From Rhodoferax sp. (lineage in GTDB: Bacteria; Pseudomonadota; Gammaproteobacteria; Burkholderiales; Burkholderiaceae_C): DNA of 10,541 nucleotides. Both the position numbers and the translations under genes were made by a program. The notes below the pieces were generated by a model that searched no databases, was not told the DNA's origin, and saw only the letters and a program-made list of their open reading frames with translations. Each line of letters starts with the position of its first letter. Positions within the stretch are counted from its first letter, which is position 1. Positions 2,426-10,541 of this stretch are shown in pieces. Where the stretch lies: NCBI GenBank assembly GCA_021731215.1, contig JAKFXU010000267.1, positions 1 to 10,541 on the forward strand, written 5' to 3'.

Positions 2426-2590
2426 TCAACGTGAAAATAATCGCACCGCAGGCTGCGTGTTGATTTTCACTTTTCGGCTATGGGCAAGACAGTCGCGCAG
2501 GTACAAGTTAATGAGACTCTGATACGGAACGCGATGCGCGTTGTCGAGAACGATCAGGGGACGAAGCCAGATGGCGTCAATGCGGATCAT
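2426..2590 (-). pseudogene. Chimeric ORF: IS66 tnpB start fused to CopG-like antitoxin tail
   Basis: The ATG at 2590 overlaps the tnpA stop (ATGA), the usual IS66 arrangement. The first nine residues, MIRIDAIWL, are the standard opening of IS66 TnpB, a protein of about 115 residues. After that the TnpB sequence stops, near base 2564. The remaining frame contains VPYQSLINLYLRDCLAHSRK, which resembles the C-terminal helix region of CopG/ribbon-helix-helix antitoxins (PYQSLIN-LYLRD). The frame runs 54 residues to a TGA at 2426-2428. My reading is that a deletion joined the left part of an IS66 element to the 3' end of an antitoxin gene, removing tnpC, most of tnpB, the antitoxin N-terminus and any partner toxin. 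The TnpB part is fairly sure. The antitoxin part rests on one motif. Confidence 0.6.
2431..2470. repeat. Hairpin at 3' end of the chimeric ORF
   Basis: Eight-base arms GTGAAAAT (2431-2438) and ATTTTCAC (2463-2470) enclose 24 bases that include a smaller CGCA/TGCG dyad. The plus-strand copy is followed by a short T-run (TTTT, 2471-2474), so it may act as a terminator for leftward-lying plus-strand transcripts such as torD; on the minus strand it overlaps the end of the fused ORF. Confidence 0.4.
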
Positions 2591-2991
2591 GCCAGGTACG
2601 CTTTGAGCCATTGCGCGCATTGCAGCGGGGCGCCGCTGGGCCAGTGCAGCACGACACTGCGCGGTCCTTGACTGCAGTCGATGCGCACGCTGGACGGGCA
2701 ATCGGTTTGGGCCGCGAGGCCCGCATTGGTCGCTGGCGTTTGTCCATCGTCTACATTGACCAGGACAAAACCAGTCCCTTTGCCGGACCTGCGTCGTGCC
2801 GGGGCAATGTAGGCCGGGTCTGCCAGTTGCGAGCGCCAGCGCGGTCCATGCGACAGCCAGCCTCTGAGTTGGCCGTAGCTCAGCCCTTGTGATTGCGCAA
2901 AATCTTGGGTGCTCAGCCCGCTGTGTGCCAACTCGTCGAGCACATCCAGACAGCGCCGCATTTGCTCGCGATTGAATTTCTTGCTTGCCAT
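2587..2991 (-). CDS. tnpA: IS66-family accessory protein TnpA
   Basis: A 134-residue protein with an N-terminal helix-turn-helix (about residues 5-50, including LSTQDFAQSQGLSYGQLRGW, the 'recognise short peptide then W' pattern of IS66 OrfA). A variable middle follows, then a C-terminal beta-hairpin and helix (VRIDCSQGPRSVVLHWPSGA, then LKAYLA) as in that family. In IS66 elements TnpA is a small accessory protein needed with TnpB for efficient transposition by TnpC. The ATG at 2991 has AAGGAG at 3003-3008 upstream. Its stop overlaps the tnpB start (ATGA), which strongly supports the family call. Alone it cannot transpose the element; whether it is still expressed is unknown. Confidence 0.78.
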   Translation of the reverse strand: MASKKFNREQMRRCLDVLDELAHSGLSTQDFAQSQGLSYGQLRGWLSHGPRWRSQLADPAYIAPARRRSGKGTGFVLVNVDDGQTPATNAGLAAQTDCPSSVRIDCSQGPRSVVLHWPSGAPLQCAQWLKAYLA

Positions 2992-3049
2992 AACTCTCGG
3001 TCTCCTTGGAAAACCTCAAGATTGCCGGCTTATCGATCAGGTTTCAAGG

Positions 3050-3069
3050 TGGGTTGGCGGAACGCTTAC
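3050..3069 (-). repeat. Terminal inverted repeat (tnpA-side end) of the IS66 remnant
   Basis: Minus strand from 3069: GTAAGCGTTCCGCCAACCCA. The GTAAGCG opening is characteristic of IS66 ends. It also marks the exact point where the small ORF beginning at 3124 loses its coding sequence. Confidence 0.65.
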
Positions 3070-3124
3070 CTTCGATACGTTTGATCTGGCGTGCATCCAA
3101 CACCTGATACGGCGACTCATTCAC
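3070..3124 (-). pseudogene. 5' stub of a gene coupled to hipA, cut by IS66
   Basis: A GTG at 3124-3122 overlaps the end of hipA (stop at 3119-3117) and opens VNESPYQVLDARQIKRIE, 18 codons, before the IS66 terminus at 3069. The overlap of start and stop is a strong sign of a translationally coupled third gene in the hipBA operon. The rest of the gene is not in this window. I cannot assign a family from 18 residues. The peptide does not look like a continuation of HipA, which ends normally. Confidence 0.55.
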
Positions 3125-4376
3125 CAGGGGGGCTTTCAAAGAAGAAGCACTCGGGCAGGATGGCCGGTTCGATGTAGTCCAGGTCCTGGGCCGACACACC
3201 GCACGCGAAGAAGCTCTCGCGCCATTGCCGCGCCACCGCGACGATCTGATCAATTTCCTTGCGGGCATCTTCGGCCGACAGCCCGAAGCGGCCAGCCTGC
3301 GACAACAGGTTGTAGAGGCTGGCCGTGCGACCGTAGTTGCCCACGGTCAGTGCCAAGTCGCGTCGCTCCAGGCTAACCACAGGGGTGGGCACCAGGTCAT
3401 AGGCGGGCGATAGACGCCATCCCTTGGGCCGGCGCAGCAGCGCGTGATTGCGTGGGTGATCGTCGTTGTTGGTCACGGCGGCATTGAAGACCATGCGCCG
3501 AAATAGTTCAGCGCAATCGGCTTCGGGCTTGTCGGACCAGCGACGCAGGTTGTCGGCCAGCAGTGGATAGGCCCAGCGTTCACGGTTCAGATAGCTGTCG
3601 TCGCAGTCGAGCACCGTCAGCCCACTGACCAGCCCAAAGCGCAGATAGCCCTTGTCCGTGTGTTCACGATCGAAGCGCTGCAGCATCAGCACATCGCTGT
3701 CGCCGACCGCCTGCAGGCGTGCCTGCGTGACGTTCAGGCCGCAGCGGCGTGCGAGGTCGAGAGTGGCGTACTCGATGCGCTGCAGGTTGCAGCGATCGTT
3801 CTTGGCGGGAAACTTGCCCAGCCATAGGCAGTTCGCATCCTCGATGGTGGCCTTGGGACGGGCACCGCCCATGCTGGTGCCGGGATCGAGTTGTTCCAGC
3901 AGGTGCGGCACCGGCTTGCCGTCTTCGATGGCCTGGGCTGCGGCAATCAACTCGGCGAGTTGGTGAGTGCGGTTGTACTGGCGCTTGGGGGCGGGTGGTT
4001 CGGCCTTGAGGCCAAAGCTCAGGTAGCCGGCACCATCCTGCGGGCCATGCAGCAGATAGTCGATTTCATGCAGATCGCCGGCGGCGCGTTCGAGCTTGTG
4101 CTCGATGACCCGCCGCCCCCAGGCGTCCGGGCTCGCATCGCGCAGCGCACCGGGAATGCCCTTGAGTTGGGTGAACTCGTGGACGGTTTTGTCCAGCGGC
4201 AGGCGGTATGGGTCGAGCGCCACCGCTTCGGCACGCTGGAGATAGCGGTCGCCATAGCGAAAGCGGCCGATCTGCGTGCCGTCGGGCAGGGTCTGCACTT
4301 TCAGCAGCGCCGCCGGCACCGTGTCCAGGGTGCCAGGAAGCTGGATGTAGACGTAGGCTTCGCGTTCAGAAGTCAT
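3117..4376 (-). CDS. hipA: HipA-family serine/threonine kinase toxin
   Basis: HipA is a cytoplasmic protein kinase; the E. coli protein phosphorylates glutamyl-tRNA synthetase, halting translation and causing persistence. This one has 419 residues (E. coli 440). An N-terminal HipA_N region (about 1-100, ending KGIPGALRDASPDAWGRRVI) leads to the kinase core. The glycine-rich loop TSMGGARPKA is at 167-176, with Ser168 placed like the autophosphorylated Ser150 of E. coli. The catalytic segment NNDDHPRN carries Asp305/Asp306, and the metal-binding AYDLVP has Asp327. All key residues are present, so it is probably active. I start at ATG 4376, which overlaps the end of hipB by 11 bases and opens MTSEREAYVYIQ; the longer upstream frame merely shadows hipB. 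Its substrate may differ from E. coli's. Confidence 0.92.
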   Translation of the reverse strand: MTSEREAYVYIQLPGTLDTVPAALLKVQTLPDGTQIGRFRYGDRYLQRAEAVALDPYRLPLDKTVHEFTQLKGIPGALRDASPDAWGRRVIEHKLERAAGDLHEIDYLLHGPQDGAGYLSFGLKAEPPAPKRQYNRTHQLAELIAAAQAIEDGKPVPHLLEQLDPGTSMGGARPKATIEDANCLWLGKFPAKNDRCNLQRIEYATLDLARRCGLNVTQARLQAVGDSDVLMLQRFDREHTDKGYLRFGLVSGLTVLDCDDSYLNRERWAYPLLADNLRRWSDKPEADCAELFRRMVFNAAVTNNDDHPRNHALLRRPKGWRLSPAYDLVPTPVVSLERRDLALTVGNYGRTASLYNLLSQAGRFGLSAEDARKEIDQIVAVARQWRESFFACGVSAQDLDYIEPAILPECFFFESPPGE

Positions 4377-4698
4377 AGTCGTTGCCGGTCTTGCGCGGCT
4401 TGCCCGCACGGGTGGGACGACGCGAGGCTTCGAGCGCCTTGCCGTGAGCATCGGTGTCCGGATCGGCCACCGCGTCCAGAGACTTTTCCAGGCCGAGCGC
4501 CCACAGCACGGTGAAGCACACGCCAATGGCCGTGCCGGGCTTGCCGAGTTCCAGGGCCGTTAGGGTGTTGCGGTTGACCCCTGCCTTGCTGGCGAGGTCC
4601 ACCACCGACCAGCCGCGACGAATCCGCGCGACACGGATGCGCTGACCGAGCTGGACGACCCGCTCGGAGACATGCAGCGGAATGGCGAAGTTGCTCAT
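4366..4698 (-). CDS. hipB: HipB-like antitoxin, XRE/Cro family HTH regulator
   Basis: The 110-residue protein has an HTH_3 domain at about residues 16-70 (QRIRVARIRRGWSVVDLASK, then AGVNRNTLTALELGKPG). A basic, probably disordered C-terminal tail ends NDYDF, comparable in place to the HipB tail that contacts HipA. HipB proteins bind operator dyads as dimers, repress their own operon and hold HipA inactive. The ATG at 4698 lacks a clear Shine-Dalgarno sequence (TAAGCCTAAAATC precedes it), so translation may start from a short leader or be weak. A perfect palindrome 26 bp upstream is the likely operator. hipB and hipA overlap, giving coupled synthesis. I see no truncation or damage. Confidence 0.88.
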   Translation of the reverse strand: MSNFAIPLHVSERVVQLGQRIRVARIRRGWSVVDLASKAGVNRNTLTALELGKPGTAIGVCFTVLWALGLEKSLDAVADPDTDAHGKALEASRRPTRAGKPRKTGNDYDF

Positions 4699-5060: not shown

Positions 5061-7166
5061 TCAAGCCGACGGGCTGATCGCCGTCAAGCCGAGGTCGGGG
5101 GCGTTCGGCTCGCTCAACAGCCAGACGCTGAACACCGCGCCGGTGGCCTCTTCGCCGCGCTCGCGCCGGTTGGCGCCGCTGATGCTGCCGCCGTAACGCT
5201 CGACCAGCCCGACGCTGATCCACAGGCCCAGCCCGTTGCCGTCGTTCTTGGTGGTGAAAAAAGGGCGGAACAGCTTGTCACGCACGGGCGCGCTCAGTCC
5301 GGCGCCGCTGTCGCAGATTTCAATCACCACACCGGCGCGGCCCTGCTCATTGCGCCGGTCTTGTGTGCGCAGCAGCAGGGTGCCGCCTGCGGGCATGGCC
5401 TGGATGGCATTGATCAGCAGATTGATGACGACCTGCTGCAGCTCCTGGCGGTTGATGCCGATGGGTGTGCTGGCCTGCAGCCGGCGCACCACCTCGATGC
5501 GGGTGTGGGCTAGCAGATGCGCCACCAGCACCAGTGAGTCGTTCAGCGTGCGGTTGACATCGACCGGTTCCACGTAGCCGGCGTAATCCGTGGGGCGCGC
5601 GTACTGCAGCAACTGGGTGACGATCAGGCGCATGCGATCCACCTGCTGGTCCATCAGCTTCAGCTCGGCCGCCACCGGCAGCGCATGGTCAGCGAGGGTT
5701 TCGCGCATCAGGTCCAGGTTGCCCTGCATGACGGCAATCGGGTTGTTGATTTCATGCGCCACACTGGCGGTCAACTGGCCGATGGCCGCCAGTTTTTCCG
5801 ACTTGACGAGTTGCTGCTGCGCCTGCTGCAGTGCGGTGTTGCTCTGGGCCAGTTCCTGCGTGCGCGCGACCACTTTGGCATCGAGTTCGTCGGCCCAGTG
5901 CTGCAGGGCGCGGGTCTTGTCGTCGATCACATTGAGCAACTGGTCCAGATGGGTGGCCAGCGCACCGATCTCGTCGCGCGCCTGCACGGCGCCGACCCGT
6001 GCGCCGCTGTCGCCTTCTTGCACCCGCTGCATGGTGTGGTTCATCTGCTCCACGGGTTTGAAAATGCTGCGCGCCCAGCGCACCGAGAACAGCGCCGCCA
6101 GCACCATCACCAGCAGGAAGATGGCGGCGATCAGCGCCAGCATGCCGTACTTGACCCAGCGAAACGGCTGCTCCAGGTAGCCCACATACAGCATGCCCAC
6201 GCGCTGGCCGACGGCATCGAGCAGCGGCTCGTAGGCCGACACATACCAGTCGTTCACCACAAAGGCGCGGTCCAGCCAGGTGTCGCCGCGGGTCAGCACG
6301 GCCTCGCGCACCGCTTGCGAGACGCGGGTTCCGATGGCGCGCCGGTCCTGGAACAGGCGCACATTGGTGGTGATGCGCACGTCATCCAGGAACAGCGTGG
6401 CGGTGCCGTGGCTGCCCAGGGGCAGCGAGTCCGCGGGGTAGACGATGCGGTTGATGTGGTCGATCAGGGCCAGGTTTTGGTTGAGCAGCAGGCCGCCGCG
6501 CAACAGGGCCAGTGTTTCGCCCCGCGCGCCCAGCACCGGCGTGTTGGAGAGCATGACCAGCGCCCGGTCCTCGATGCTGCGCTCGCTCGGCGCGGCGCCA
6601 CGCGTGGCCAGCAGCGGAATGCGAATGCGCTCGGCCAGATGCGGCGCCAGTGCCAGCAGCTCGGCGGCACTGAGCCGGGCCAGGCTGGCGCCGGCCTGCG
6701 CCCCTGCGCTCGGGGTCAGGGTCGGGGTCGGGTCGGGCGGCACCAGCGGCGCGGGTGGCGTGGCGCTCGCCCAGTCGGCCGTCAGCAGCGCGCCTTGCGG
6801 GTGGTAGAGGTTGATGAAGTCAAAACCAAGCCGGAGTCGCTCCTTGGCCAGCAGGGCTTGCAGGCCCGCCAAATCAGCTTGCGCCAGCGCCAGGTGCAGC
6901 GTGTGCGAGGCGGCCACCGCGTGCGTGCCGGACCCCACTTCACCCAGCACCTGAGCGAAGTAGCCGTGGGCCACCGCCAGGTCGCTGCGCACCTTGGTGA
7001 TCAGCAGGCGGTCGTAGGCGGCATTGCCCCAGATCACCAGCGCGCCCAGCAGCAGCGGCAGCACCACCGCCAGGGGCAGCAGGGCCATCGCCAGCAGTTT
7101 GTTGCGGATGGAGTGGGTGAGCCAGCGCGGTGTCAGCCGGGCCAGCAGCGCCAAAGCCTTTGGCAT
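5061..7166 (-). CDS. Membrane sensor histidine kinase with Cache-like periplasmic domain
   Basis: This 701-residue inner-membrane kinase should sense a periplasmic signal and phosphorylate the regulator encoded just upstream. Order: transmembrane helix 1 (about 24-46); a ~290-residue periplasmic domain whose second half (GTATLFLDDVRITTNVR, then VVNDWYVSAYEPLLD and GMLYVGYLE) reads like a Cache-type domain; transmembrane helix 2 (about 340-362); HAMP; a Gln-rich coiled coil; HisKA with VAHEINNP, phospho-acceptor His471; and HATPase_c with N box NLLINAIQAMPAGG, G1 DSGAGLS and FFTTKNDGNGLGLWIS. A Pro-rich insert occupies about 135-157. The start is ATG 7166, overlapping the regulator stop by one base (TGATG); ATG 7181 is a near alternative. 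No PAS domain was seen. Divergence from fdh suggests formate, or a related electron-donor cue, as signal, but the ligand is unknown. Confidence 0.93.
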   Translation of the reverse strand: MPKALALLARLTPRWLTHSIRNKLLAMALLPLAVVLPLLLGALVIWGNAAYDRLLITKVRSDLAVAHGYFAQVLGEVGSGTHAVAASHTLHLALAQADLAGLQALLAKERLRLGFDFINLYHPQGALLTADWASATPPAPLVPPDPTPTLTPSAGAQAGASLARLSAAELLALAPHLAERIRIPLLATRGAAPSERSIEDRALVMLSNTPVLGARGETLALLRGGLLLNQNLALIDHINRIVYPADSLPLGSHGTATLFLDDVRITTNVRLFQDRRAIGTRVSQAVREAVLTRGDTWLDRAFVVNDWYVSAYEPLLDAVGQRVGMLYVGYLEQPFRWVKYGMLALIAAIFLLVMVLAALFSVRWARSIFKPVEQMNHTMQRVQEGDSGARVGAVQARDEIGALATHLDQLLNVIDDKTRALQHWADELDAKVVARTQELAQSNTALQQAQQQLVKSEKLAAIGQLTASVAHEINNPIAVMQGNLDLMRETLADHALPVAAELKLMDQQVDRMRLIVTQLLQYARPTDYAGYVEPVDVNRTLNDSLVLVAHLLAHTRIEVVRRLQASTPIGINRQELQQVVINLLINAIQAMPAGGTLLLRTQDRRNEQGRAGVVIEICDSGAGLSAPVRDKLFRPFFTTKNDGNGLGLWISVGLVERYGGSISGANRRERGEEATGAVFSVWLLSEPNAPDLGLTAISPSA

Positions 7167-8563
7167 CACGGCAAGGCCCATTCGGCGCAGCGCCGCTCCA
7201 GCGTACGGCGCGAAATACCGAGCAATTGGGCGGCCCGGCTCTTGTCGCCCTGCACCGAGTCCAATACCGCCCGGATATGCTGTTTCTCCAGCGTCTGCAG
7301 GTCGGTGGCGCCATGGCTCTGGCTGGCGGTGGACTGGGGCGGTGCAGTGCGCTGGCCCAGCGAATACAGGGCCGACACATTGAGGCTGCCCAGAATCAGG
7401 GAGCGCTCGATCAGGTTGCGCAGCTCGCGCGCATTGCCGGGCCATTCGTACTGCATCAGGTAGTCCATCTCGGCGGGCGTGATCTCCAGCGGCGCCACGC
7501 CCAGTACGGGGGCCAGTCGGGCCATGAAATGGGGCACCAGATCGGCAATGTCTTCCTTGTGCTCGCGCAGCGGTGGCAGCGTGATTTCCACCACCTGCAG
7601 CCGGTAGTAGAGGTCTTTGCGGAAACGCCCGGCCGCCACTTCTTCCCTGAGGGACCGGTTGGTGGCGGCAATGATGCGCACGTTCACCGGCAGCAGCTTC
7701 TCGCTGCCCACCGGGCGGATCTTGAGGTCTTCCAGCGCGCGCAGCAGCGTGGCCTGCAGGGGCAGGGGCAGATCGGCCACTTCGTCCAGGAACAGTGTGC
7801 CGCCCTGGGCGTAGTAAAACAGGCCGTCGCGCGCCTTGGTGGCGCCGGTAAAGGCGCCCTTGGCGTGGCCGAACAATTCGCTCTCGATCAATTCGGGCGA
7901 CATGGAGGCGCAATTGACCGGCACAAACGGCCCCTGCGCGCGCGGACTCAAGTCGTGCAAGGCGCGCGCCACCAGTTCCTTGCCGGTCCCTGATTCGCCC
8001 TGCAGCAGTACCGTGCTGTTGACGCCGGCGATCCGGCCCAGCGAGCGGGACAGCTCGGTCATGACCCGGGAATGCCCCACCAGTCCGTTGCTGGCATCCT
8101 GGCGCGCCGACAAGGTGTGTTTGAGCACATAGTTCTCGCGCGCCAGCCGGGAGTTCTCATGGCAGTGCTTGATGGCATTGAGAATTTGCGGCACCCGAAA
8201 GGGTTTGAGAATGAAGTCCGAGGCGCCCGCGCGCAGCGCCTCGATCGCGGTGTCGAGGTCGGCAAAGGCGGTGATCAAGATGACCTGCCCCGAAAAGCCC
8301 TGTTCGCGCAGCGCCTTGAGCCAGCTCACGCCATTGCGGCCGGGCAAGGAGATGTCCAGGATGATCAGATCGACATGTTGCGCGTGCAGAATTTCGGCGC
8401 CTTCTTCCGCGCTACCGGCGCTCATCACCGAGTGGCAGCGCGGCACCAGGGTCTTGACCAGGAAGTTGCGCATGCCGGGTTCGTCATCGACGATCAGGAT
8501 CGACCACAACGGCCAGCCTTCCGGGGTCTTGTCGTTCGGTGGAAATGAAGGTGTTTGAGTCAC
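7166..8563 (-). CDS. Sigma-54-dependent response regulator (NtrC class)
   Basis: This 465-residue activator has a receiver (about 20-135) with the acidic pair Asp26/Asp27, phospho-acceptor Asp70 in ILDISLPG, Thr98 and Lys120. The AAA+ domain follows (about 160-390) with Walker A GESGTGKE at 189-196, the sigma-54-contacting GAFTGA loop at 236-241 and Walker B GGTLFLDE at 254-261. A Fis-type HTH closes the protein (about 425-463, GDKSRAAQLLGISRRTLERR). The family activates promoters bound by sigma-54 from distant enhancers, using ATP hydrolysis. All motifs are intact. GTG 8563 is the only plausible start, since a TAA lies in frame four codons earlier. It is transcribed with the kinase and away from fdh; the gap carries the expected enhancer and sigma-54 sites. 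Targets are probably the fdh operon, by inference. Confidence 0.95.
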   Translation of the reverse strand: MTQTPSFPPNDKTPEGWPLWSILIVDDEPGMRNFLVKTLVPRCHSVMSAGSAEEGAEILHAQHVDLIILDISLPGRNGVSWLKALREQGFSGQVILITAFADLDTAIEALRAGASDFILKPFRVPQILNAIKHCHENSRLARENYVLKHTLSARQDASNGLVGHSRVMTELSRSLGRIAGVNSTVLLQGESGTGKELVARALHDLSPRAQGPFVPVNCASMSPELIESELFGHAKGAFTGATKARDGLFYYAQGGTLFLDEVADLPLPLQATLLRALEDLKIRPVGSEKLLPVNVRIIAATNRSLREEVAAGRFRKDLYYRLQVVEITLPPLREHKEDIADLVPHFMARLAPVLGVAPLEITPAEMDYLMQYEWPGNARELRNLIERSLILGSLNVSALYSLGQRTAPPQSTASQSHGATDLQTLEKQHIRAVLDSVQGDKSRAAQLLGISRRTLERRCAEWALP

Positions 8564-8693
8564 GGTAGGCGATTAATGTGAGTGGAAATTCTAGTTGCAA
8601 AGCCGACAGATTTACTCGGGTAAGCGATTTTTCAGACGCATTCGGCCGCGTCCGGCGAGTGGGCCGCGTTGGAAGCAGCAGATGGGGTGAATT

Positions 8694-8720
8694 TTGTTTG
8701 CGACAAGTTGTCGCAAACAA
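8694..8720. promoter_or_regulatory. 27-bp perfect dyad, probable enhancer (UAS) for the NtrC-type regulator
   Basis: Arms TTGTTTGCGACAA (8694-8706) and TTGTCGCAAACAA (8708-8720) flank a single G at 8707 and pair perfectly. The centre lies about 131 bp upstream of the predicted fdh transcript start, a usual distance for NtrC-family enhancers. A Fis-type HTH dimer is expected to bind such a dyad. The assignment to the adjacent regulator is inference from position. Confidence 0.72.
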
Positions 8721-8727
8721 TATGCCA
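8712..8727 (-). promoter_or_regulatory. Sigma-54-like promoter facing the regulator-kinase operon
   Basis: Minus strand reads TGGCATATTGTTTGCG against the consensus TGGCAYRNNNNTTGCW: all fixed positions match except the last. The predicted start is near 8701, giving a 138-base leader to the GTG at 8563. Its -12 half is part of the dyad, so either the match is partly a by-product of the dyad or regulator binding there would block this promoter. Confidence 0.45.
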
Positions 8728-8769
8728 AGTTGGCGGCAATCGATGTCGGGCGGCTGGGCGGCAAGGACG

Positions 8770-8782
8770 CAGATCGTTGATT
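8770..8782 (-). promoter_or_regulatory. IHF-like site between enhancer and sigma-54 promoter
   Basis: Minus strand AATCAACGATCTG fits the IHF consensus WATCAANNNNTTR with one mismatch. It sits about 62 bp upstream of the predicted fdh start, between dyad and promoter, where IHF bends DNA in many sigma-54 systems. The motif is degenerate, so the position is the main support. Confidence 0.4.
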
Positions 8783-8811
8783 TATAGGGCACATGGCGTT
8801 GCTGTGATGAC

Positions 8812-8827
8812 TGGCATGGTTTCTGCT
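8812..8827 (+). promoter_or_regulatory. Sigma-54 promoter of the fdh operon
   Basis: TGGCATGGTTTCTGCT matches TGGCAYRNNNNTTGCW at every fixed position but one (C for the first T of TTGC); the invariant GG and GC are exactly ten bases apart. The transcript would begin near 8838, leaving about 172 bases before the first ATG at 9010. The adjacent NtrC-class regulator carrying GAFTGA supports sigma-54 use here. Confidence 0.72.
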
Positions 8828-9009
8828 ATTTTGCCTGGCGTGCGTGTGCCCTTGTTGCGCTCAGCGGGGGGTGAATCACAAGGCCCATTGCACCGGGGTC
8901 TGTAAAGGGTTTGTACCTACTGGCCCAAACCTATAGACGTGCCTATATTCGCCTTGAGAATTTCGATCGGCAGTTCAGTTCCTATGCGGAACTCTTCAGG
9001 AGACACAGC

Positions 9010-9219
9010 ATGAGTCAAGCGACGACAAAGTTGTCACGGCGAACCCTGTTTGCGGGAGCCAGTACCGTTGGGGCCATTGCTGCCGCAGCCAGTTTGCTGC
9101 CCTCCATCCAGGGTCTGGCGACGCCCACCGCGCAGCAGCCCAAAGCGGCGCCTGCAGCGGGCGGGGGCTACACCTTGAGCGAACACGTCAAGCAGTACTA
9201 CAAGACCACGCTGGTCTGA
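9010..9219 (+). CDS. Formate dehydrogenase-region small Tat-signal protein
   Basis: This 69-residue protein carries a twin-arginine signal ([20 protein letters not shown]) near its N-terminus and a short tail ending [13 protein letters not shown]. It matches the small 'formate dehydrogenase region TAT target' family, found just upstream of fdhA in many proteobacteria. The function is not known; the family is thought to travel through Tat and perhaps to sit with the enzyme. The ATG at 9010 has AGGAGA at 8998-9003 and is well placed. A longer in-frame start at 8911 (TTG) would add residues before the Tat motif and lacks support. It is the first gene of the operon, 43 bases before fdhA, so both probably share the sigma-54 promoter. 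Confidence 0.88.
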
Positions 9220-9262
9220 TTTCCCTCTATCACGCCGATCCCCGCCGCCATTGGAGAGCCCC

Positions 9263-10541
9263 ATGCTGTTGACCAAAAAAACCGGTGCATCCGACACCGC
9301 CGCCCGTTCCCCGTTCGTGCACAGCCTGCGCCGCGGCCTGGCGCAGGCGCTGCCCACCATGGACCGGCGCGCTTTTCTGCGCCGCTCCGGACTGGGCGTC
9401 GGCGTCGGACTGGCGGCCTCGCAGTTGACGCTGGTAAAAAAAGCCAGTGCGGCGCCTGGAGGGGCGGCGGTTGGTGAGGGCAAGATCGAAATCAAGCGCA
9501 CCATCTGTACTCATTGCTCGGTTGGCTGCGCGGTCGATGCGGTGGTCGAGAACGGCGTCTGGGTGCGCCAGGAGCCGGTGTTCGACTCCCCGATCAACCT
9601 CGGCGCCCATTGCGCCAAGGGCGCCGCCCTGCGTGAGCACGGCCACGGCGAGTTCCGGCTGCGCTACCCGATGAAACTGGTCAACGGCAAGTACCAGCGC
9701 ATCAGTTGGGACACGGCGTTGAGCGAGATCAGCGCCAAGCTGCAGGATTTGCGCAAGGCCAGCGGGCCCGATTCCATTTACTGGGTGGGCTCTTCCAAGC
9801 ACAACAACGAGCAGGCCTACCTGCTGCGCAAGTTCGTCAGCTTCTGGGGCTCCAACAACTGCGACCACCAGGCCCGCATCTGCCACTCCACCACGGTGGC
9901 CGGTGTCGCCAACACCTGGGGTTATGGCGCCATGACCAATTCGTACAACGACATGCAAAACAGCAAGGTCGCCCTGTACATCGGCTCCAACGCGGCCGAA
10001 GCGCATCCGGTCAGCATGCTGCACATGCTGCACGCCAAGGAAAACGGCTGCAAGATGATCGTGGTCGATCCGCGCTTCACCCGCACCGCGGCCAAGGCGG
10101 ACGAATACGTGCGCATCCGCTCGGGCTCCGACATCCCGTTTTTGTTCGGCCTGCTGCATCACATTTTCAAAAACGGCTGGGAAGACAAAAAGTACATCAA
10201 CGACCGCGTCTTTGGCATGGAGAAGGTGAAAGAAGAGGTGCTGGCCAAGTGGACGCCGGACAAGGTGGAGGAGGCCTGCGGCGTCAAGGAGGCGCAGATG
10301 ATCAAGGTCGCGACCTGGCTCCATGAAAACCGTCCCGGCACCATCGTCTGGTGCATGGGGCAGACCCAGCACAGCATTGGCAACGCCATGGTGCGCGCCT
10401 CGTGCATTCTGCAACTGGCGCTGGGCAATGTCGGCAAGTCGGGTGGCGGCACCAATATTTTCCGCGGCCACGACAACGTGCAGGGCGCCACCGACGTCGG
10501 CCCGAACCCCGACTCGCTGCCCGGCTACTACGGCATCGTCG
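9263..10541 (+). CDS. fdhA: Formate dehydrogenase alpha (catalytic) subunit, 3' truncated by window
   Basis: Periplasmic FDH-N/O-type enzymes oxidise formate to CO2 at a Mo or W bis-pterin guanine dinucleotide centre and pass electrons through an iron-sulfur subunit to a membrane cytochrome. Here 426 codons are present of a gene usually about 950-1020. A Tat signal ([15 protein letters not shown], about residues 34-48) marks export. Cys82, Cys85, Cys89 and Cys117 form the 4Fe-4S site (CTHCSVGC plus HCAKG). The active-site segment [11 protein letters not shown] has Cys207 followed by His208, so this is a Cys enzyme, not the selenocysteine form of E. coli FdnG/FdoG. GGAG at 9253-9256 precedes the ATG at 9263. 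The beta and gamma subunits should follow beyond the window. Confidence 0.96.

Follow-up and report, generated by a model that had tools for sequence, protein, structure and literature searches.

A predicted formate-responsive two-component switch with a sigma-54 promoter at a periplasmic formate dehydrogenase operon of Rhodoferax and its relatives

Contig JAKFXU010000267.1 of a Rhodoferax sp. genome (GenBank assembly GCA_021731215.1, 84.67% complete) carries genes for a sensor histidine kinase and a response regulator that diverge from a formate dehydrogenase (FDH) operon; the whole stretch of 10,541 nucleotides analysed here is called the window. The unit is very probably a formate-responsive two-component switch dedicated to the periplasmic FDH. 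As the fold of its Cache domain and a conserved residue triad suggest, the kinase would sense formate outside the cytoplasm and phosphorylate the regulator, which, judging from conservation, would bind a tandem operator at 8694-8737. The DNA would then loop, in this lineage with the assistance of integration host factor (IHF), and the AAA+ ring of the regulator would remodel sigma-54 RNA polymerase at 8812-8827, turning on the fdh operon. The features of this unit are the following:

7166..8563, minus strand: response regulator of 465 amino acids with receiver, sigma-54 AAA+ and Fis-type helix-turn-helix (HTH) domains (Pfam; orthologues and tree)
7841..7858, minus strand: GAFTGA loop of the regulator (codons for residues 236-241), which is intact here (from the sequence)
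7178..7228, minus strand: codons of the DNA-recognition HTH, residues 446-462 (Pfam and motif check)
5061..7166, minus strand: membrane sensor histidine kinase of 701 amino acids (Pfam: sCache_3_3, HAMP, HisKA, HATPase_c)
6327..6377, minus strand: kinase codons 264-280 with the predicted formate triad R264, T267 and T280 (alignment to 8py0/8py1)
8694..8720, no strand: main operator (upstream activator site), a perfect 27-bp dyad (inverted-repeat search and conservation)
8721..8737, no strand: second, weaker operator with 10 of 16 matches to the core, 22 bp (two helical turns) downstream of the first
8770..8782, plus strand: IHF-like site CAGATCGTTGATT, matching the IHF consensus YAANNNNTTGATW at 8 of 9 positions
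8812..8827, plus strand: sigma-54 -24/-12 element TGGCATGGTTTCTGCT facing fdh (GG-N10-GC pattern; counterparts in relatives)
8838..8838, plus strand: predicted transcript start, placed about 12 bp past the -12 GC
9010..9219, plus strand: small TIGR02811-like protein (35 bits, below the cut-off of 48.45) with a twin-arginine translocation (Tat) signal, encoded first in the fdh operon
9251..10541, plus strand: FDH catalytic subunit fdhA with a twin-arginine signal and the Cys in QARICHS, running off the window

Loci compared and scoring

Searching named genomes with the kinase as query gave 172 relatives, of which the best 80 were taken, corresponding to 79 distinct loci from Rhodoferax, Curvibacter, Hylemonella, Hydrogenophaga, Polaromonas, Tepidicella and other bins and isolates. 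The regulator was matched in 77 of the 79 (not in L042 and L073). Seventy-two loci, which were readable from the regulator start through the intergenic region to the small Tat gene, were used together with the window, giving 73 rows; L018, L019, L042, L056, L071, L073 and L075 were left out with a part missing or cut. The operator core was scored as the number of matches out of 16 to TGCGACAA-N-TTGTCGCA, and distances were counted from the first base of this core to the base preceding the TGG of the -24 element. A -24/-12 element was called present from a score of 14.7, a threshold chosen by the authors that lies between the 95th (13.7) and the 99th percentile (15.24) of shuffled sequences; this score rewards GG and GC, and the complete conservation of these letters is partly by construction. 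Three assignments were made by hand: the main operator of L006 was placed, a candidate -24/-12 element of L014 (score 15.7, at a distance of 151 bp) was not counted because none is present in its sister loci, and for L035 a site at 155 bp was preferred over the top score at 60 bp.

Regulator and operator

An earlier note on this sequence had described a divergently encoded regulator with GAFTGA and a Fis-type HTH, and this description was borne out by Pfam and motif searches, which additionally found a receiver with the phospho-acceptor Asp and a sigma-54 AAA+ domain with Walker A and B motifs. Sigma-54 itself was looked for in 47 genomes, and the rpoN family was detected in 45 of them, the exceptions being the genomes of L024 and L033. 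The window's own genome counts as positive by a 26-bit fragment only; in a second search the first 49 RpoN residues were found there at 98% identity on a contig edge.

The perfect dyad of the same note is likewise present, as TTGTTTGCGACAA-G-TTGTCGCAAACAA (13+1+13 bases, 8694-8720), and its centre at 8707 lies 131 bp before the predicted start, as had been claimed. It is the sole strong inverted repeat of the intergenic region 8564-9009 and, with gaps of 0-8 allowed, the longest perfect one of the window, its arm of 13 comparing with longest arms of 7-10 in 40 Markov-shuffled windows. The core, at 8699-8715 in the window, is conserved at orthologous divergent loci, with 14-16 of 16 matches in 65 of the 73 rows, 13 in six and 12 in two. 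A second operator at +22/+23 scored at least 9/16 in 62 of 73 rows, a score reached by 1.5% of shuffles. An 8/9 or 9/9 match to the IHF consensus at +60 to +80 from the operator was found in 15 of 73 rows, a count made without a shuffle control; all 15 rows belong to the Rhodoferax/Curvibacter side of the tree, where the distance between site and operator is about 70 bp.

In the window's genome, which is 84.67% complete, there is a single copy of the operator and no other site at up to two mismatches, so that the word dedicated is fair. At three mismatches 12 other sites appeared, against 32 for the reversed control pattern. When 29 genomes from the set were searched with at most one mismatch, one copy was found in 24, two in four and none in one. 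The reversed control gave one match in 15 of these 29 genomes, which indicates that palindromes of this kind also turn up by chance or through other use.

Predicted sigma-54 promoter and spacing

A near-consensus -24/-12 element facing fdh, the third element of the earlier proposal, was confirmed with GG-N10-GC spacing, and counterparts at or above the threshold were found in 58 of 73 rows. Since the degenerate pattern, with one match in the window, is expected there 0.11 times and occurred at least once in 20 of 200 shuffles, the motif alone is weakly significant and other evidence is needed. The distance from the operator to the -24 element, 89-193 bp overall, is clustered at 111, 121, 132, 144, 156, 167.5 and 180 bp; three rows, at 89, 103 and 193 bp, fall outside the clusters. 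The best period was 11.5 bp, with R values of 0.71 for the 58 rows and 0.62 for the 28 distinct values, neither of which was reached by any of 2000 null sets; a period of 10.5 bp fitted worse (R 0.28). To allow for distances that relatives have inherited in common, the test was repeated on 15 pairs on disjoint tree paths, and the periodicity was retained (mean cosine 0.64, p 0.003). Thus, of the expectation that dyad and promoter would be conserved at fixed spacing, the conservation held, but the fixed distance was rejected in favour of one quantised in steps of about 11.5 bp. We read this phasing as selection holding the regulator on one helix face relative to the polymerase, as a looping activator needs. 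The sequence elements and the phasing are present, and the regulator may act on the -24/-12 element from its upstream site.

It is very unlikely that the dyad is mainly autoregulatory or repressing and that fdh is driven from another promoter. The site does lie between two divergent genes, and one clade keeps the operator without the -24/-12 element, so that the operator must be useful without it. Autoregulation would, however, not require the phased spacing, and the best -24/-12-like scores on the regulator side of the main operator are 6-14.8, as opposed to 14.7-18 on the fdh side where the element is present.

Kinase and predicted formate sensing

The start codon of the kinase overlaps the stop codon of the regulator (TGATG). 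In a 704-residue reading of the kinase, sCache_3_3 covers residues 231-338. The sensor consists of two modules and shares its fold with two Cache domains of solved structure, 8py0 and 8py1, whose formate complexes were taken from the PDB titles. The C-terminal module has sequence matches only to these two formate-bound domains. The Arg/Thr/Thr triad lies in the membrane-proximal module; of the 64 kinases aligned, 62 have it. The formate chemoreceptors 8py0, 8py1 and PacF have the same fold and the same triad (Arg, Thr at +3, Thr at +16); the residue roles at the PacF site are described in the available text of PMC12501870. Because of the Cache match and the near-invariant triad, the likely signal of the kinase is periplasmic formate. 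Whereas the three proteins are chemotaxis receptors, the Cache domain here would drive a histidine kinase and comprises two modules. No description of a formate-sensing kinase controlling an FDH was found in the open PMC papers searched.

A kinase that senses something else, such as another small carboxylate, the tungstate or molybdate supply or a redox signal, within the same sigma-54 switch is unlikely, but deserves some weight. Cache domains bind many ligands, and LuxQ, DctB and PctA match the model nearly as well (Z scores of 15.9, 14.2 and 13.3); moreover, the pair faces Tup-like, MobA, MobB and MoeA genes in distant relatives (see below), which would fit a metal signal. Formate is favoured by the triad and by the restriction of sequence matches of the C-terminal module to formate-bound domains, and a single activator for enzyme and metal uptake would fit a message of substrate present better than one of metal scarce.

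Erosion of the GAFTGA loop among orthologues

The intact loop of the window is not general among its orthologues. The 73 rows comprise 39 with GAFTGA, four with GAFSGA and 30 with an eroded loop, the latter made up of 17 GAFAGA, four GAFPGA and nine others, e.g. SAVKGA, ASPRSA, PGSHGS and GVIQGV. Loop length is unchanged throughout, and eight changes of loop state are needed on a tree made without the GAFTGA columns. Erosion occurs in isolates and not only in metagenome bins, namely in Tepidicella xavieri, T. baoligensis, Hydrogenophaga intermedia MER 62, H. borbori and Curvibacter sp. PAE-UM.

That these regulators no longer activate sigma-54 promoters, with the -24/-12 element left as a relic or serving another enhancer-binding protein, is a reading on which we are evenly divided; it concerns the eroded orthologues and not the window. 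In the available portions of the cited sources, GAFTGA mutants are mostly activation-defective (PMC7175178), a Thr-to-Pro exchange abolished the activity of a NifA (PMC4641369), and the GAFTGA-less NtrC proteins of Caulobacter and R. capsulatus work at sigma-70 promoters (PMC10274813). On the other side, 20 of the 30 eroded rows retain the -24/-12 element, and in 19 of these its distance differs by no more than about 2 bp from a main spacing cluster (the exception is L080 at 103 bp). In the ten most eroded regulators (L071 included) the Walker A/B, arginine-finger, sensor-II, phospho-site and HTH residues are conserved, and sensor I is variable. No close paralogue that might replace the eroded regulator was seen in 26 genomes, the next best of the scored candidates having at most 42% identity, and a Desulfovibrio protein with GVATGV is predicted to be still active on sigma-54 promoters (PMC4641369, available part).

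The remaining 10 eroded rows form one Curvibacter/Hylemonella group that has lost the -24/-12 element and kept the operator. Four GAFTGA sister loci of this GAFAGA group also lack the element, for which reason it was most simply lost before the loop. A link between loop erosion and promoter loss is unsupported, eight loop changes standing against two promoter changes on the tree; among tree-independent pairs (eight for the loop, one to two for the promoter) no association was found, the pairs being too few to reach significance. Erosion through genomic loss of sigma-54 is likewise unsupported, given the rpoN counts above. As a side observation, a TATATCAGTGA-like motif, a possible sigma-70 -10 element, lies downstream of the operator in the GAFAGA group without -24/-12 (L007, L009, L010, L012, L013, L015, L017, L020, L021 and L074; variable in L007 and L021).

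A second operator site was found at a nearby FDH-accessory operon that encodes DUF3305, DUF3306 and 4Fe-4S proteins (Pfam) and a TorD-like chaperone, the last assigned by likeness to the window's gene. Of 59 readable rows, 13 have a site scoring 14-16/16 about 62-80 bp upstream of the DUF3305 start codon (e.g. L013:16009, L009:15964 and L067:16114), these being nine of the ten Curvibacter/Hylemonella GAFAGA rows (the sequence of the tenth, L020, is too short) and four rows of a Tepidicella-type clade. It is absent, with scores of at most 11, from all 31 intact and 11 other eroded readable rows, and absent also from four rows that lack a full entry; among these four, L071 is eroded and two rows score 12. 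For 21 rows, including the window, the site was not readable. The position near the start of this operon in two eroded clades is unlike that of a sigma-54 enhancer and speaks for the loss of sigma-54 activation. Two independent gains, both in eroded lineages and both promoter-proximal, suggest that the regulators act there without sigma-54; two events are too few for a test. In L013, this accessory operon is next to a second FDH alpha subunit (16120-19197), which is above the TIGR01591 cut-off and, like NAD-linked types, has a 2Fe-2S domain, so that the switch sits between two FDH clusters there.

It is possible, though we rather doubt it, that the eroded regulators, despite the repeated loss of a loop regarded as invariant and essential in sigma-54 activators, drive sigma-54 promoters through another contact and that the operators gained in the two lineages catch a switch from sigma-54 to sigma-70 in progress. 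HupR is a further enhancer-binding protein in which GAFTGA is missing or varied. The sigma-54 contact loop is likewise lost or changed in the NtrC proteins of Caulobacter and R. capsulatus, in VspR and in DVUA0100 of Desulfovibrio (PMC10274813 and PMC4641369, each as far as available). In the two NtrC proteins, however, the loop is deleted and the promoters are of the sigma-70 type, whereas here loop length is kept, the sequence has been replaced repeatedly in one syntenic orthologue, two thirds of the eroded rows still face a -24/-12 element and the window's own loop is intact. Repeated erosion of this kind with the promoter kept is not described in the available text of PMC4641369, PMC10274813 and PMC7175178, and a genome survey of 2025 kept only proteins with GAFTGA, termed invariant there (PMC12316311, in part).

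Wider family

Beyond the close relatives, the kinase was found at E<=1e-80 in 18 of 300 genomes of the order and the regulator at E<=1e-125 in 22 of 369 genomes of the class, the window's included in both counts and the other regulators having at least 48% identity. From these, 16 order-level stretches (L104-L119) and 20 class-level loci (L122-L141) were inspected. At the order level, the window's fdh recurs in L104 (86%) and L105 (81%), L106, L110, L111, L115, L116 and L118 face another FDH with 31-35% to that of the window, split as by a selenocysteine codon in L106, L110 and L111, and no FDH match was found in L107, L112, L113, L114, L117 and L119.

At the class level, 12 of 20 loci face tungstate-transport or molybdopterin genes, as read from the divergent open frames: a TupA-like tungstate-binding protein in L122, L123, L125, L126, L131, L135 and L141, transporter parts in L136 and L138, and MobA in L134, L139, L140 and also L136. 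Other genes are faced in L124, L127, L128 and L129, and L130, L132, L133 and L137 offer too little sequence. In family tests, MobA of L134 was above the cut-off, TupA-like of L123 reached 247.5 of 400 bits, TupB of L138 167.5 of 320 and TupC of L136, which was not its best match, 121.7 of 400. In L144, a longer stretch around L131, an operon at 8325-13004 encodes TupA-like, ABC permease, ABC ATPase, MobA, MobB and MoeA proteins, the last three above the cut-off. The operators visible at the distant loci resemble TGGGACA-N3-TGTCCCA. In L105 the loop is GAAEGR, and downstream of the operator no -24/-12 element scores above 13; where the regulator could be read in the other distant loci, its loop is GAFTGA, GAYTGA, GAFSGA, GAYSGA or GAFTGS.

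Several observations weigh against the proposed switch. Among the close relatives, one clade of 14 rows lacks the -24/-12 element, and in L016 the element is damaged. No regulator was found in L108 and L109. In L112, L114, L117, L119, L124, L127, L128 and L129 no -24/-12 element above 13 was found and operator matches were weak at best, and L130, L133 and L137 likewise had none, with little or no upstream sequence.

Neighbouring genes

A full-length fdhA is available in L003, where it scored 371.7 of 814.2 bits with TIGR01553 and 466.9 of 666.25 with TIGR01591, the FDH-N alpha cut-off not being reached. A membrane cytochrome b gamma subunit was seen in the L003 operon only (TIGR01583, 163.1 bits, cut-off 115.85); the window ends earlier. 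On the kinase side, a HipA/HipB-like toxin-antitoxin pair and an IS66-accessory-like fragment (2587-4698) stand between the kinase and the TorD-like gene, and L003 and L079 have no DNA matching this segment at that place. Beside the TorD-like gene, only the last 25 codons of a 703-aa 4Fe-4S accessory gene are left (1341-1415), and a 44-bp stretch (1303-1346) matches elsewhere in L079; together these look like a rearrangement or an assembly junction. Further out, positions 12-791 encode a Fic/DOC-family protein with a C-terminal winged-helix region.

Relation to known systems and implications

In NtrC-type systems (AtoSC, ZraSR, DctBD, NtrBC) a kinase and a REC-AAA+-Fis regulator act with an upstream operator, a -24/-12 promoter and looping. 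The present unit has the same predicted architecture; it differs in its target, an FDH operon, and in its formate-type Cache sensor, and the NCBIfam equivalog cut-offs are missed by far. The best matches of the regulator were NtrC (394.1 of 558.6 bits) and AtoC (392.2 of 714), with 340.7 of 760 for ZraR, and the best match of the kinase was AtoS with 179.4 of 646. FhlA of E. coli, which is formate-linked and sigma-54 dependent and activates a formate dehydrogenase system, is cytoplasmic and senses formate itself, without a kinase. The regulator of the window has a receiver, and its match to the FhlA model (263.5 of 830 bits, residues 138-461 against model positions 358-683) covers the AAA+/HTH part only.

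A sigma-54 promoter of a membrane FDH operon, fdnG of Geobacter sulfurreducens, has been mapped by primer extension (PMC2725144, available part); the same portion names no cognate kinase-regulator pair or operator. The interpretation of the earlier note is supported, with limits: dyad and -24/-12 element are conserved at orthologous loci, the operator is single-copy in the window's genome and the pair travels with fdh, but sigma-54 control of a membrane FDH is not itself new.

If the proposed switch is correct, the FDH would gain a dedicated sensor for formate outside the cytoplasm, unlike the cytoplasmic FhlA route, and the region upstream of fdh would be a candidate promoter for induction by formate. 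Since nature offers a series of eroded loops opposite sigma-54 promoters that look intact, a central assumption on sigma-54 activation becomes directly testable. In the wider family, the pair probably provides for the metal and cofactor of molybdenum/tungsten enzymes in addition to the enzyme itself. Formate sensing seems to be linked there with the uptake of tungstate and the synthesis of molybdopterin, and the simplest common theme would be that formate raises the enzyme together with its metal-cofactor supply.
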